This document shows positions 1,481 through 7,964 of a stretch of DNA of 41,541 nucleotides, piece after piece. A program made the translations under genes and the position numbers. Below the pieces are notes generated by a model, which made no database searches, was not told the DNA's origin, and worked only from the letters and a program-made list of their open reading frames with translations. This DNA comes from Candidatus Nanohalarchaeota archaeon (GTDB lineage: Archaea > Nanohalarchaeota > Nanosalinia > Nanosalinales > Nanosalinaceae), in the NCBI GenBank assembly GCA_022729355.1, contig JALDAN010000003.1, forward strand, positions 1 through 41,541, given 5' to 3'. Every line of letters starts with the position of its first letter. Position 1 is the stretch's first letter.

Positions 1481-3076
1481 TCAGTATCCGACGAGATCCA
1501 GTGGCTCGTCTCTCCCCTCTACGAGTGCGAAAACACCTTCCGGTGTCTCAACAATCACTGAAGGCCTTCCTGAAGAAGCAGAAGTATTCCCGTTAATCAC
1601 CTGTCCTCCGTTCCTTTGCTCAGGTACTCCTGAATCAACTCCTGTATGGCCAACTATTTGATTTCCTGCGTCTCCAGGAATATTTTCCCAGGCCATCCAT
1701 GTCATACCTGCAGTTTCATCTCTCGTGCTGTCATCTCCTAAACCGAAAAGCATTTGATACCGTCCATCTCTTCTCGATATTCTATCGTTTATCTCTTCTT
1801 CGTTGGATCGAGAACCGTTCGAAATATCTTCAAGAATAGGCTCGGCCACAAGTTTCTTGAGTGCTGAATTTGCCTGCTTCATCTTATCTTGGCTTGCATA
1901 TCTGGCTCCGCCATGAACATAGAAATAATGATATCCTTCAGCCATCATCTTGATATTATCGTTCATTATAGCTTCGGCGAACTGCCTCTTCATCCCGAAG
2001 TCTCTTGAAATATCTCCATTATCAGCATCGTATATCAGTGAAGCTAACTCAACTTCATCACCTGCGGGAGGAAATTCCCCCAATCCTTCTCCTATAGCTG
2101 TGGAATGAACCCTTTGCTCTTTTTTTATTCTTGCTTTTGGAATAAGTATAGGACGATCATGATTACCCATAGTCATCTCACCTCTACCAGACGAAAGTAT
2201 ATTGAAAACACTCTGCCACACCCTGCCCGGCTCATCACCTCTATCCAACAGATCGCCGTTCATAACAAATCTGTATTTATCACCGCCTGTCCACTCAAGA
2301 ACACGACCGGTCTCTGAAACAATAGGACTCCACCCATGCCTCTCCAGAAGACTCAAGGCCTCTCTCATGAAACCGTAATCACTCTCAACATCAGAAATAG
2401 ATATTATCCACGGCTCATCAGGAGAAGGCCTGCCATACTTACCATCGTAAGGTCCGTCCGCAGGACTTCCAGAACCTGAAGTCTTGACCATTGAGTCTTC
2501 TCTCAGAATTGTGCTTACACGCTCCGCTCTCTCATGTAGCTCTGATTCAAGGCCTGTAATATCAACTCCTCTGTTTTCAAGTACGGTCTCCAGAGTATCC
2601 TCAAGCTGTGCAATCATCTGGCCTTTAGAATTCAATTGCTCTAGTTTTCTCCCTAACTCGTTGATTTGATGCTCTTCTTTGCCAGCTACTTTTCCAATAT
2701 CATGATCTTTAAGCATCTCAGCAATTCTCTGAAGCTCCCTGTCTTCATCATAGGCCTGCGAAAGATCATTTCTGAGTTCATCTTTCAATGATTTCAGTCT
2801 TTTAGCATTGTTCAGAGAGGCCTCTATTTTTTGTCCTATCTCTGCCTGTCTGGCTTGCTGTATCTCTGTCAGGTACTGGCGCAATGCTTCACGTGCGTCA
2901 TTTGAAAAGGTCAGGCTTACTGAGTCAATGCCGAAATCTACTGCATCTTTATGAATTGTCAGGCCGTGTTCATTCAATATCTTTCTAGCGAGCAAAGTCT
3001 TCTGTTCTTCAGTCAGATCTTCATCCGATGTTATGCTTTCTGCTATAGCCCTTACTGCGTCTCTGTAGCCAGTCAT
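1481..3076 (-). CDS. PPP/ApaH-like calcineurin-type metallophosphoesterase with N-terminal coiled-coil region
   Basis: Motifs SDVESD, NGDLLDRGD, GNHD, VHGG, VGHTG; long charged N-terminal helical region. Confidence 0.8.
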   Translation of the reverse strand: MTGYRDAVRAIAESITSDEDLTEEQKTLLARKILNEHGLTIHKDAVDFGIDSVSLTFSNDAREALRQYLTEIQQARQAEIGQKIEASLNNAKRLKSLKDELRNDLSQAYDEDRELQRIAEMLKDHDIGKVAGKEEHQINELGRKLEQLNSKGQMIAQLEDTLETVLENRGVDITGLESELHERAERVSTILREDSMVKTSGSGSPADGPYDGKYGRPSPDEPWIISISDVESDYGFMREALSLLERHGWSPIVSETGRVLEWTGGDKYRFVMNGDLLDRGDEPGRVWQSVFNILSSGRGEMTMGNHDRPILIPKARIKKEQRVHSTAIGEGLGEFPPAGDEVELASLIYDADNGDISRDFGMKRQFAEAIMNDNIKMMAEGYHYFYVHGGARYASQDKMKQANSALKKLVAEPILEDISNGSRSNEEEINDRISRRDGRYQMLFGLGDDSTRDETAGMTWMAWENIPGDAGNQIVGHTGVDSGVPEQRNGGQVINGNTSASSGRPSVIVETPEGVFALVEGRDEPLDLVGY

Positions 3077-3087
3077 TTTATCATTCC

Positions 3088-4224
3088 TCAGTTTGCAGGC
3101 GTCAGATCAAAGCTGGTTGGAAAACTGTATTCTGACGCAATATCTGTCCAGTGTTCATCCAAGGTTTGACTCCATTCTCTGAACTGGGACGAACTGTCTT
3201 TGTTGAAAGATTGAAGTTCTGCATCTCTTCCATTCCTCTCTACAAGTATTTTACGTGGTGTTGCAAGCATACCTGTGTATCCTTCGCCTTGATCATCGAA
3301 GTTCTGTAAATCTCTTCTAGACCAGTTCTCTGCAAACTGTGGTCCATGCTGCTGAATAGTTCCTACCGAGTGAGTATGAAAGTCGATAAAACTGTATCTC
3401 GGATATTCCTCAAGCAAATCATTTACAGCATTGACATAGGCCTTATCTGGAGAAACATTTCCTTCTGTACCTGCCCCTGAAAGAAGCATTTTGAGAGCAA
3501 TAAGCTCGTCCCCTTCTTTACGACAGATAAGATGGCCGCAGACTTCTTCTTGATAGTTTCTGGCGAATTCCTGCATCTGTTCAAGGAAATCTTCAGGAAC
3601 ACTGACCTTTATTGCTCCACTTCTTGAACGTTGAGAAGAGGCCTGAGCATTATTTAGTATGAGGCCTAAAACCTGCTTCCTGTGTCGAAGAGAGGCCGTT
3701 ATTTGATGGGTGTTGACATACTGTTCCAGTGTTTGAAGTTCATTCATCAGGGAGTTCAGTTTCTTTCTTCTTTCAAGTATGCCTTCAAGATTTCTGCCGG
3801 CCTGCATCATCTGTTCTTCTTCATATTCAACTTCAGCCAACAGATGAGCATCTTTTAATCTTCTTGCTATATCTTCAAGTTCATTACCTTCATTCACGGC
3901 TGTCTCAAGATCTGCAGTTAACTGCCTTGTCAAGGAGAGCAGCATGCTGTACTCATTCTTCTTGTTGGGAACGACCTGTGTGGAGTCAAGCTGCTGAGCC
4001 CACTCCATGTTTGAATCAATTGCTGAAACATATGAACGCAGGAACTCCTCCTCATCAGAACTTACAGATATACTTACAATTTCAGATACTATCGTCTCAA
4101 CATCATCCAAATCCGTATCATACGACAGTATGGAGGCCTCTATATCAGAGCCATCCCTGTTGTCAGGGACATGCATATTGTTTTCTAGAAACCTTCTGAA
4201 CTTTCTGTGATACTTTTCAACCAT
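3088..4224 (-). CDS. JAMM/MPN-type metalloprotease domain with N-terminal coiled-coil region
   Basis: EEVCGHL... followed by FIDFHTHSVGTIQQHGPQFAENWSRRD (E, HxH, SxxD JAMM pattern). Confidence 0.7.
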   Translation of the reverse strand: MVEKYHRKFRRFLENNMHVPDNRDGSDIEASILSYDTDLDDVETIVSEIVSISVSSDEEEFLRSYVSAIDSNMEWAQQLDSTQVVPNKKNEYSMLLSLTRQLTADLETAVNEGNELEDIARRLKDAHLLAEVEYEEEQMMQAGRNLEGILERRKKLNSLMNELQTLEQYVNTHQITASLRHRKQVLGLILNNAQASSQRSRSGAIKVSVPEDFLEQMQEFARNYQEEVCGHLICRKEGDELIALKMLLSGAGTEGNVSPDKAYVNAVNDLLEEYPRYSFIDFHTHSVGTIQQHGPQFAENWSRRDLQNFDDQGEGYTGMLATPRKILVERNGRDAELQSFNKDSSSQFREWSQTLDEHWTDIASEYSFPTSFDLTPAN

Positions 4225-5044
4225 CGTTCTCTCCCAGAAGATTAATCACGGTTCTTATCCTTTCAATATCATTTTCAAGTTCCTCGACTTCCTCCTCCAT
4301 TAACTCATTCAGTTCTTCTTCGGCATCTGAAAGTATCCTTATAACTTGCTCAAGCTCTTCAGCAGTTTGTTCGGCCTCCCTGTCAGCTTGATCTTCATCA
4401 CCGGCTTCTATCTCCTCTTCCTCACGAGCCTCTTCCTCTTCAATCCTCTCTTCCATTACTTCTGCTCTGCTCAAGGCCTCCTTCGTTTCCTGTATTCCTT
4501 CAGCCATCTGTTCTGCCCCTCTAGCAGTAGCTTTCGCAGATGCACCTGTAACATATGCAGATCCTCCTATGATGCCTCCTACACCTCCTATCAGGACGAA
4601 GATAATGCCTGCTAACAACATAAACGTGAATGCTAGAAGAATCAGTGCCTGCCAGCCATTTATGAGGCCTGCAAATCCAGCCGATCCAACAATTGTCAAA
4701 GTGATTAGAAGAGTAAGTACAGCCAGTATGTTCCTATCATCTTCATTTGTAAGACCCATAGCGTCCTGGAAAGGCCTATTCATTCTGCCGTCTTCGAAAT
4801 TATCATCGAGATAGCGGATTGCTACTTTGAATATGATGTAGGTAGAAACCCACATTACTGCAAAAGTTGCTAGGACTCCCAGTAGCTCGTATGGATTCCT
4901 GACACTGACCCCGAAAAGCTGTCCAAGTAACTCAGGTATAGAAGCCGTCTGATCGTAAAAACTTCCGCCACCACCGGTTATCTGAGCAGATGTCGACGGA
5001 ATAAAAATATAGAGGGCAGCGACAAGCTTTTTCCAAGACTTCAT
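4217..5044 (-). CDS. Multi-pass membrane protein with signal-like N-terminus and long acidic C-terminal coiled coil
   Basis: MKSWKKLVAALYIFIPSTSAQ..., several hydrophobic helices, then an E-rich coiled coil; overlaps the JAMM start by 8 nt (operon). Confidence 0.7.
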   Translation of the reverse strand: MKSWKKLVAALYIFIPSTSAQITGGGGSFYDQTASIPELLGQLFGVSVRNPYELLGVLATFAVMWVSTYIIFKVAIRYLDDNFEDGRMNRPFQDAMGLTNEDDRNILAVLTLLITLTIVGSAGFAGLINGWQALILLAFTFMLLAGIIFVLIGGVGGIIGGSAYVTGASAKATARGAEQMAEGIQETKEALSRAEVMEERIEEEEAREEEEIEAGDEDQADREAEQTAEELEQVIRILSDAEEELNELMEEEVEELENDIERIRTVINLLGENDG

Positions 5045-5261
5045 GCCGTTAAATTTGAATTACTTGGTTATAAGAGTTAAACCTGCAGACACCGCAAACC
5101 AGTTCCCACACTTTTCCCACGCTGAATTAAAAACATACAGCCATGTAACAAAGAATAGAACCAACAATGAAAGGTGACCGCGTTCATCCCTCAAACCGAG
5201 GGAACGAATACATGTAAAAACACTCAAAATCTTCTATACAGCTCCAGCTCTACCAATAAAG

Positions 5262-5513
5262 GTGGAGACGTTCACCTCTGCAAAATTCAAAGCAGAGCTT
5301 GACTCACGTGGACGAGTAACAATACCGGCCCGGATAAGAAACCGGAAAGGCCTTCAACCTGGAGAAAAAGTAAAGCTTTCAGTTGAGGCCGGAAAAGTAG
5401 TCTGCAGAAGCTTTGAGACCAGTCGAGAGGCCTTGAACTTTGTACAGAGTCTTGACGGAGTAGAAAGTTTTTCCTTCAGTGATGGCGTCTTGGAGGTGGT
5501 GCTCCGTGAGTGA
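5262..5513 (+). CDS. AbrB/SpoVT-MazE-like DNA-binding domain protein
   Basis: LDSRGRVTIPARIRNRKGLQPGEKVKL swapped-hairpin AbrB signature. Confidence 0.8.
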   Translation: METFTSAKFKAELDSRGRVTIPARIRNRKGLQPGEKVKLSVEAGKVVCRSFETSREALNFVQSLDGVESFSFSDGVLEVVLRE

Positions 5514-6087
5514 AGTCGAGTTCTTTGACTTGACTTACGATGAATCGGAGTACTCTCTTTCAGATGAGGCCTTTGAGACTGCCCTGATAGGTACTTATCA
5601 GAGAGTCTTCAATCAATCGCCTTACAGGGAGAATTTTGATTACCAGCTTGCCGAGGAGATTATTCAGGGAATAGAAACTAGTGATACTGAGGGAGTAGTT
5701 GCAGTGGATTACGGCATTCCTGTCGGATTTGCCTGGGGAGAAGTCCTCCAACCAAAAGATCAGGGCGATTTTCCTGATGAAGTGCCGGAAATCTTCTTTG
5801 ACGGAGAGGCCTACTACTTTGCAGAGCTTGGAGTACTTCCATCATACAGAGATCAAGGTATCGGAAAGGAACTTAAGAAAAGGGAGCTGCAGGAAGTCAT
5901 GCAGAGAGAAGATCTGGATAAAGGCCTTATGAGGACATCGATAGAGGAGAATGAGAAGAAGCTGGGCCTTGACAATGATCTAGGATTCAGGCCTCTGGAG
6001 AGAGACGGGGAGATAGTGACTGAGGAAGTTGATACTGTAGGCCGTGATGACAGCGATCTACGTGGCTACTTCTGGAGGCGTCTCTAA
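5506..6087 (+). CDS. GNAT-family N-acetyltransferase
   Basis: AELGVLPSYRDQGIGKEL acetyl-CoA-binding motif; probable GTG start at 5506 overlapping the preceding stop. Confidence 0.8.
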   Translation: MSEVEFFDLTYDESEYSLSDEAFETALIGTYQRVFNQSPYRENFDYQLAEEIIQGIETSDTEGVVAVDYGIPVGFAWGEVLQPKDQGDFPDEVPEIFFDGEAYYFAELGVLPSYRDQGIGKELKKRELQEVMQREDLDKGLMRTSIEENEKKLGLDNDLGFRPLERDGEIVTEEVDTVGRDDSDLRGYFWRRL

Positions 6088-6166: not shown

Positions 6167-7471
6167 ATGAGTATTAATCTGGAGAGCTTGAAAGGTACGT
6201 ATGACAGGTACCCCGATGAGTGGAGTTCCTGGAGAGAATTGATTGAAACAGTTGATGAGGTGGCGGATGAGTTCGGTTTCCGGCAGTTGAATCCGCCAAG
6301 TATTGAGAGACAGGAGCTCTGGACAGAGAAAGAAGAGGACTCCGTCACAGATGAAATGTACGCATTCACGGATAAAGGCGACAACGAGATTACATTGGTG
6401 CCTGAGCAGACTCCTACAAGAGCCAGACTCATCCAGAAAAGAAAGGATCTGAAGAAGCCTGTAAAATGGTATGATACTTCGAAGAGATGGAGATATGAGG
6501 ACGTCACAAGAGGGAGAGACAGAGAATTCATGCAGGGAGACTTCGACATCTTCGGCATAGAATCAGTAGAGGCTGATGCAGAAATTCTGGCTGCGGCTGC
6601 AACAGTATTCAGGAAACTGGAGCTTGATGACAGAGTTGTTCTGCGTGTAAGCGACAGACAGATAGTGGAAGGATTCCTTGAACTGAATGATATACCTGAA
6701 GTCGAGAAAGTGATGAAGGTACTTGACGACGAAGAGAAGATGACCAGAGAAGAATACATCGAGGAACTTGAAGAAATAGGCCTGAAACAGGAGGAAATAA
6801 GGAAAGTAGATACACTGACAGATATCTCAGGCGCAAACCTTGAACAGCAGCTGGAAGAACTTGAAGAAAAGACACCAGGCGAACTAAATGATAGAGTGGA
6901 ACGTATGAAGTCTCTTGTAGAGGCCTTGGAAAGCTATGGAGTCGAAGATATGATAGAGATCGATTTCTCCATCGTCAGAGGCCTTGCATACTATACAGGG
7001 CTTGTGTTCGAGGCTTTTGACTCGGAAGGAGAGTTAAGAGCATTATTTGGTGGAGGTAGATACGATGAACTGGTCGGAGAGTTCGGTGATCAGGATGTGC
7101 CTGCAGTAGGATTTGCTTTCGGATATTCTCCTACGATAGAGTTGCTGAAGAAGGAGGAAAGGTGGCCTCTGAAAGAAATTGAGACAGATGTATATGTTCT
7201 CTCAGTCAGTGAAAGCGTGAGGAATGTGGCTCTTGACTATGCGACAAGACTTCGAGACGAAGGCCTTGCTGTGGAGACTGATCTGGCTGGTAGAGGATTT
7301 GGCTCACAACTAGGCTATGCCGATGATATCAATGCAAAACGTGTATTGATAGTTGGAGAACGTGATCTGGAGAACGATGAAGTAACGATGAAGCATATGG
7401 AAAGCGGGAAAGAAGAAAAACTGGATAGATATGAAGTAATCGAACATCTCAAAGGAGAGGGCTTCTTCTAG
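6167..7471 (+). CDS. hisS: Histidyl-tRNA synthetase
   Basis: 434 aa class II aaRS; KGTYDRYP..., LVPEQTPTRARL, RWRYEDVTRGRDREFMQGDFDIFG, GLAYYTGLVFEAF. Confidence 0.93.
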   Translation: MSINLESLKGTYDRYPDEWSSWRELIETVDEVADEFGFRQLNPPSIERQELWTEKEEDSVTDEMYAFTDKGDNEITLVPEQTPTRARLIQKRKDLKKPVKWYDTSKRWRYEDVTRGRDREFMQGDFDIFGIESVEADAEILAAAATVFRKLELDDRVVLRVSDRQIVEGFLELNDIPEVEKVMKVLDDEEKMTREEYIEELEEIGLKQEEIRKVDTLTDISGANLEQQLEELEEKTPGELNDRVERMKSLVEALESYGVEDMIEIDFSIVRGLAYYTGLVFEAFDSEGELRALFGGGRYDELVGEFGDQDVPAVGFAFGYSPTIELLKKEERWPLKEIETDVYVLSVSESVRNVALDYATRLRDEGLAVETDLAGRGFGSQLGYADDINAKRVLIVGERDLENDEVTMKHMESGKEEKLDRYEVIEHLKGEGFF

Positions 7472-7964
7472 GCCTCTCCTCAACATCACTGAAAAGCCTG
7501 CCTTCAGTATCGACGGCAAACTCTGAGGCCTTAAAAACGTCTTTTTCTCCTTCAATATTTCTCAGGACAGTATCAAGAGTTTCACAGTCATAATGGCCTG
7601 ACATGATTCCTTCTATAACGTATGTTTTATTTCCTTCCTGAAATGTTTCCATCTGCTCCTCTGGCGTACATCCTATCTGTCCAGGAGAGATATGTGCAGC
7701 ATAAAGTCCATCATTGTGGATGGACACTGTGCCTATACAGTAACATAACTCCTCCATATAAACTGCTTCTGTATAAAATCCACTCTGATCGACATCTACC
7801 TCAGCGAATCTTCCCGAATAAGTTTCAGTCTCCAGAACACCACTCCAATTTTCTTTACTCACATATAACAACAAATCTATGAGTTTTTTATAGTATGTTT
7901 CAGAAGTCTTTGAGGCCTTTCTGCTTCTCCTCTTCATCCCTGTAGAAATTATATTCACGTGCAA
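7449..7964 (-). CDS. Hypothetical protein
   Basis: 171-aa ORF with acidic composition; overlaps the downstream end of the neighbouring CDS; start uncertain. Confidence 0.55.
   Translation of the reverse strand: MHVNIISTGMKRRSRKASKTSETYYKKLIDLLLYVSKENWSGVLETETYSGRFAEVDVDQSGFYTEAVYMEELCYCIGTVSIHNDGLYAAHISPGQIGCTPEEQMETFQEGNKTYVIEGIMSGHYDCETLDTVLRNIEGEKDVFKASEFAVDTEGRLFSDVEERPRRSPLL

Follow-up and report, generated by a model that had tools for sequence, protein, structure and literature searches.

Gene organization of the operon

A three-gene operon was analysed in a 41,541-nucleotide (nt) stretch of DNA, the whole of which is referred to here as the window (contig JALDAN010000003.1 of assembly GCA_022729355.1, positions 1 to 41,541 of the forward strand). 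The assembly that holds it (G000; 886 kb, 89.6% completeness) falls in the genus of Ca. Nanosalina (Nanohaloarchaeota), and its source is a tiny salt-lake archaeon, probably living attached to a larger archaeal host. Two congeners were compared, G001 (Ca. Nanosalina sp. J07AB43) and G002, the completeness of the three genomes being 90, 82 and 85%; at the family level, the three Nanosalina genomes were set beside 16 other genomes. The genes are read in the order membrane protein, JAMM protein, PPP protein, and with their principal domains they occupy the following positions (aa, amino acids; TM, transmembrane):

4217-5044, minus strand: membrane protein gene, 275 aa; signal peptide ending ...STSA/QITGG, TM helices at aa ~54-72, 106-124 and 134-152, acidic C-terminal coiled coil
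3088-4224, minus strand: JAMM protein gene, 378 aa
3640-4224, minus strand: N-domain of the JAMM protein, aa 1 to ~195, all helical
3088-3639, minus strand: JAMM/MPN+ domain, aa ~196-378, with E227, H283, H285, S302 and D305
1481-3076, minus strand: PPP protein gene, 531 aa
2480-3076, minus strand: N-domain of the PPP protein, aa 1-199
1481-2470, minus strand: PPP-superfamily metallophosphoesterase domain; motif I SDVES, then NGDLLDRG, GNHD, VHGG and GHT

The open reading frame (ORF) coordinates bear out the compact, single-strand arrangement described in the initial annotation, with an 8-nt overlap of the first two genes (4217/4224) and an 11-nt spacer before the third. Its description of the first product as a protein with a signal-like N-terminus, several TM helices (three by our count) and an acidic coiled coil is likewise confirmed. 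What it did not capture is a connection to filament loci and, above all, a domain shared by the second and third products.

A shared N-terminal domain carries different enzymes

The JAMM and PPP proteins begin with homologous helical domains of ~190 aa, here called the N-domain (BLASTP 7e-9, PPP residues 60-191 against JAMM residues 57-190). AF2 models of two different proteins render the domain as helical, with pLDDT mostly 60-89. Profile searches returned no family match for it, and a fold search gave generic helical bundles only. A five-row profile located two full-length N-domains in G000, two in G001, where a third is broken, and one in G002. The comparison covers a small set, five N-domains and five JAMM rows, and the scaffolds of G001 are gapped. 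Proteins of 540-560 aa with a weak match to the profile (G000 C48, G001 C7:114k and G002 C49; E ~2e-4) form a separate coiled-coil family and were excluded.

The C-terminal partners of the N-domain change from protein to protein. They comprise JAMM (in the window and twice in G001), PPP (in the window), RamC_N (in G001; PF25816 2.7e-9, above the cut-off, a short part being 40% identical to LanKC) and, in G002, a domain that matched no family, plasmid or phage and whose AF2 pLDDT is below 50. Of a PPP copy in G001 the N-domain alone is left, and it is interrupted by a frameshift and then by an assembly gap. An apparent RamC_N-JAMM fusion in the same genome spans a 20-N gap and was for that reason counted as two genes. 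In every N-domain cassette of the genus the membrane gene comes first, and the cassettes usually lie near hisS. The exact triplet is not conserved, but the membrane gene followed by N-domain proteins with changing C-termini is, and as orthologues exist in both congeners the observation is not due to chance. By our searches, the enzyme-fused cassette appears restricted to this one genus. Elsewhere in the family the enzymes occur without the N-domain, as stand-alone JAMM (G008, G009), PPP (G004, G010, G016) and RamC_N (G012, G014, G016, G018) proteins. Changing C-termini within a single genus, taken together with these stand-alone relatives, suggest that enzymes have been recruited to a docking tag, a pattern that is effector-like rather than one of conserved regulation.

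The RamC_N protein of J07AB43 resembles the phosphothreonine-type lyases SpvC/OspF and LanL/RamC (PMC4159009) in its lyase domain (E 2.7e-9); unlike them it has no kinase or cyclase domain, and its gene is cut by an assembly gap. The stand-alone RamC_N proteins of four nanohaloarchaeal genomes (L105, L106, L107 and L109) measure ~300 aa, and no adjacent kinase or cyclase genes were seen. At L110 (G016) a stand-alone RamC_N gene (SpvC/LanL-type) is followed by a 224-aa gene, the pair occupying 437-1111 and 1126-2061; the 224-aa product has, by eye, an ADP-ribosyltransferase-like look (VYHSTTADSALGIMEEEAY) and no Pfam match. In G001, a protein of 836-871 aa without a family match (L017 5148-7763) lies beyond a tRNA that adjoins the second of the cassette arrays.

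The membrane protein is related to a component of filament loci

A profile of the membrane gene matches longer proteins in G008 (1.9e-23), G009 (2.7e-12) and G013 (2.3e-7). In all three, the membrane/coiled-coil gene clusters with small membrane proteins, ArlC-like coiled coils and a T2SSE ATPase (CpaF-type, 1.6e-15), joined, where seen, by a T2SSF platform protein (TadC-type, 1e-6). On this profile evidence, the window protein is homologous to the membrane/coiled-coil component of a family-wide filament locus. For DPANN archaea, including Ca. Nanohaloarchaeum antarcticus, type IV filament loci have been described in which coiled-coil proteins ('CCP') accompany CpaF and TadC (PMC11291902), and the nanohaloarchaeal clusters match them as judged from the published description rather than from accession numbers. 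The likeness lies in a membrane/coiled-coil protein next to a CpaF-type ATPase and a TadC-type platform. In Nanosalina, by contrast, the two parts are separated, with a short gene at a second site encoding the membrane portion and the coiled-coil portion joined to enzymes. Of 19 genomes searched for the cluster ATPase, 16 gave strong matches (E <= 1e-158); G001, G002 and G015 hold weaker paralogues only, and these assemblies are incomplete. In G000 the filament cluster lies on contig C21, which breaks off within a coiled-coil gene, possibly this genome's copy of the component.

Is the N-domain itself related to this machine? In two genera the membrane/coiled-coil component ends in an N-domain-like coiled coil, against which the N-domain profile scored 20.7 bits (G015) and 19.9 bits (G009), while 16 control coiled coils and reversed sequences all stayed at or below 8.4 bits. 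We therefore consider it likely, but not certain, that the N-domain is homologous to the machine's own coiled coil. The topology of the membrane protein was approached through charge counts in 15 homologues, most of which carry 3-6 K/R in the loop after TM1; the TM2-TM3 turn, in homologues for which both helices were predicted, has 0-1. These counts fit a coiled coil that faces the cytoplasm. By contrast, the CCPs have been compared to viral attachment proteins (PMC11291902).

Other features of these loci deserve mention. On C21, a 755-aa coiled-coil protein without a family match (L078 9915-12182) stands between a 5-TM gene and the contig-end coiled-coil gene. In other genera, the slot beside the membrane/coiled-coil gene holds RimK-like ATP-grasp and Asn-synthase genes (L083 8533-9594; L084 7511-8551 and 5877-7475; L042 7376-8569, where the RimK-like ATP-grasp gene was identified by eye only). 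G006 (L085) has a second split component, in which a 253-aa membrane protein with a zinc ribbon, CYNCG...CSNCG, at its end (7108-7869) is directly followed by a 310-aa coiled-coil protein (6175-7107). Pfam matches to Dynactin_p22, Tetraspanin, UPF0242 and similar families, all under the cut-off and in coiled-coil or TM regions, were set aside.

The enzymatic domains

The JAMM protein contains the full catalytic set, E227, H283-x-H285 and S302-x-x-D305, which is conserved in the homologues of G001, G008 and G009. Every one of the 50 best Protein Data Bank matches of its AF2 model in Foldseek is an MPN/JAMM or JAB protein or a complex that includes one, among them CSN6, AMSH-LP, Rpn11 and Cap3 (best E 1.4e-3); the MPN fold that had been proposed for the HxH...SxxD region is thus upheld. 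As the confidence of the model is modest (pLDDT 64, lowest at 296-342), the assignment rests on motif and fold jointly. Pfam Prok-JAB has no match anywhere in the G000 genome, and the G001 homologue reaches 14.4 bits against a cut-off of 25; DUF4329 (Tox-JAB-2) matches the JAMM region at E 0.0034 and 17.8 bits, under its cut-off of 28.6. We regard the protein as having a JAMM/MPN+ domain and as a predicted isopeptidase. In G009 the stand-alone JAMM gene is directly followed by a 194-aa gene (L019 8035-8619) with a possible C...H...D layout, for which no family was found.

The PPP-superfamily domain was recognized by tblastn (5e-14, 90% coverage) through a haloarchaeal plasmid metallophosphoesterase, itself a PF00149 member at 2.1e-10, in line with the phosphatase call of the initial annotation; against the Metallophos profile the window domain scores 20.2 bits (cut-off 21.5). 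Its closest matches found outside Nanohaloarchaeota are haloarchaeal, namely metallophosphoesterases of Halorubrum, Halobellus and Halarchaeum plasmids, with ~24-29% identity over 90% of the domain and motifs II-V in common. It differs from these enzymes in its fusion to the N-domain and in motif I. Four of the five PPP motifs are intact, and motif I (GDxHG) reads SDVES, a metal-ligand His being replaced by Glu; the same motif is SDxHGYL in the haloarchaeal relatives and TDIHGYL or TDIHSYL in stand-alone nanohaloarchaeal PPPs.

The initial annotation pictured a membrane-tethered module for removing modifications or signalling, possibly near SAMP/E1-like genes. The membrane partner of that picture stands; a local SAMP/E1 partnership is not supported, and a SAMP/E1 operon was rejected. 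ThiF/E1 was found over the cut-off in none of the three Nanosalina genomes compared with all 16 other family genomes; the chance of E1 having been missed in all three through incompleteness is ~0.003, if losses are taken as independent. Free ThiS/SAMP-like ORFs of less than 90 aa are absent from the three Nanosalina genomes and present in 12 of the 16 others, and Urm1 was found nowhere in the family. The ThiS matches of Nanosalina sit in ~650-aa proteins and are probably the TGS domain of threonyl-tRNA synthetase. Because the genus has neither E1 nor a free SAMP-like protein, a JAMM substrate inside the symbiont is doubtful. Haloarchaea, the class of the host, use SAMPs and JAMM control (PMC4443979), and we infer from the lack of an evident substrate at home that the targets would lie in the host. 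Compared with the HvJAMM1-SAMP1 pair of haloarchaea (PMC4443979), the Nanosalina protein has the same JAMM/MPN+ motif and fold, but it is fused to a docking domain, is too divergent for Prok-JAB and occurs in a genus lacking E1 and free SAMP genes.

Promoter elements and genomic context

Three further features lie upstream of the operon:

5068-5073, minus strand: TATA-like TTATAA, 24-29 nt 5' of the membrane-gene ATG, noted by eye and without a statistical test
5479-6087, plus strand: GNAT acetyltransferase gene, conserved flank outside the system
6167-7471, plus strand: hisS, conserved flank outside the system

TTATAA is probably the single promoter of the operon. Shine-Dalgarno-like GGGAGAG and TGAGG precede the JAMM and PPP genes (by eye), and together these elements are consistent with one operon whose first gene is leaderless. 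GC content at third codon positions is 0.38-0.39 in the three genes compared with 0.45-0.52 in six other window genes, a mild difference. GNAT and hisS also flank the cassette in G002, and hisS flanks one G001 copy, a recurrence that argues for a fixed genomic position. A small MazE/AbrB-like protein (5262-5513; PF04014 7.5e-6) is encoded directly before the GNAT gene and divergently from the operon. A viral origin was rejected, as neither the JAMM, the membrane protein nor the PPP domain has a relative on viral contigs and PPP has no phage match; likewise a role in anti-phage defence, for which PADLOC returned weak coiled-coil matches only.

A model for a proposed docking cassette

What might such a cassette do for a symbiont? 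We propose that it is a set of docking-domain proteins linked to the filament machine, the enzymes most likely being effectors for a haloarchaeal host, a proposal in which we place about even confidence. The membrane protein would be anchored in the cytoplasmic membrane and its coiled coil would point into the cell. The N-domains would bind this coiled coil, allowing different enzymes to load on the same platform; such modular docking is the part of the model that we hold most likely, and with some assurance. The enzymes might then pass to the attached haloarchaeal host, a step for which the odds seem to us evenly balanced. Once there, JAMM would act by cleaving ubiquitin-like (SAMP) conjugates, while proteins would lose phosphate through the action of PPP or the lyase. 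The complete scheme is more tentative and falls somewhat short of an even chance: a host-directed DPANN effector system in which mark-stripping enzymes, acting on ubiquitin-like proteins and phosphate, use a domain copied from the filament coiled coil to load on a membrane platform and from there enter the haloarchaeal host.

Several observations weigh against this proposal. The sequences of the JAMM and PPP proteins contain no signal peptide or known export signal, and no immunity-type partner is found between the operon genes or directly after them. The G000 cassette (C46) is not beside the ATPase and platform genes, whose cluster is on C21, and the N-domain-like match, a coiled-coil match of modest score, is limited to 2 of 11 genomes that encode the component at full length. 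The change in motif I may indicate an altered or inactive PPP enzyme, and the JAB domains of toxins may act as nucleases instead of peptidases (PMC3482391). The haloarchaeal dependence of the source organism is itself extrapolated from related cultures, while export, N-domain binding and enzyme activity are predicted properties.

The strongest competing explanation, still an unlikely one in our estimate, is that the enzymes stay in the symbiont and regulate the filament machine, which they would do by docking on the membrane protein and stripping phosphate or other marks from pilus components or their regulators. It accommodates the missing export signals and the predicted cytoplasmic coiled coil, and ATP-grasp (RimK-like) and Asn-synthase genes do adjoin the same membrane gene in other genera. 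Moreover, PP2A and kinases control the archaellum of Sulfolobus, an archaeal type IV filament (PMC7472852). However, C-termini that vary between congeners would be unusual for regulators of a conserved machine, the genus has no visible ubiquitin-like system on which JAMM could act and the cassette of G000 lies outside the machine's own locus.

Internal housekeeping, in which a membrane scaffold and two unrelated enzymes act on the symbiont's own proteins and the shared coiled coil merely oligomerises, is improbable. Related genera do possess stand-alone PPP and JAMM genes, and coiled coils are common in the G000 genome, but the N-domains are specifically homologous, are always behind the same membrane gene and are confined to one genus.

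Least probable of all is contact-dependent antagonism against rival symbionts or other archaea with JAMM as a Tox-JAB-2-type toxin, which would suit the conserved N-domain with swappable C-terminal domains and the weak DUF4329 match with its E, H[ST]H, S, D signature (PMC3482391) but leaves unexplained the sub-threshold score of that match, the lack of an immunity gene beside the enzymes and the presence of PPP and phospho-lyase domains, which belong to host manipulation rather than killing. The bacterial polymorphic toxin and effector families (Tox-JAB-2/DUF4329) do share with the Nanosalina set the pairing of a single conserved N-domain with various C-terminal enzymes, one of them JAB-type. 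The Nanosalina set differs in being archaeal, in having no immunity genes, repeats or known trafficking domain and in carrying PPP and a phospho-lyase instead of nucleases.

The host-directed effector model bears on a field that remains open, the action of DPANN archaea on their hosts, where 'yet unknown effectors' have been called for and effectors proposed but none named (PMC10266531). The locus supplies named candidates with predicted activities, together with a docking domain usable as a search tag, and ties these candidates to filament loci for which a part in host interaction was already suspected (PMC11291902). If the model is true, the locus would exemplify an attack by one archaeon on the ubiquitin-like and phospho-signalling systems of another.
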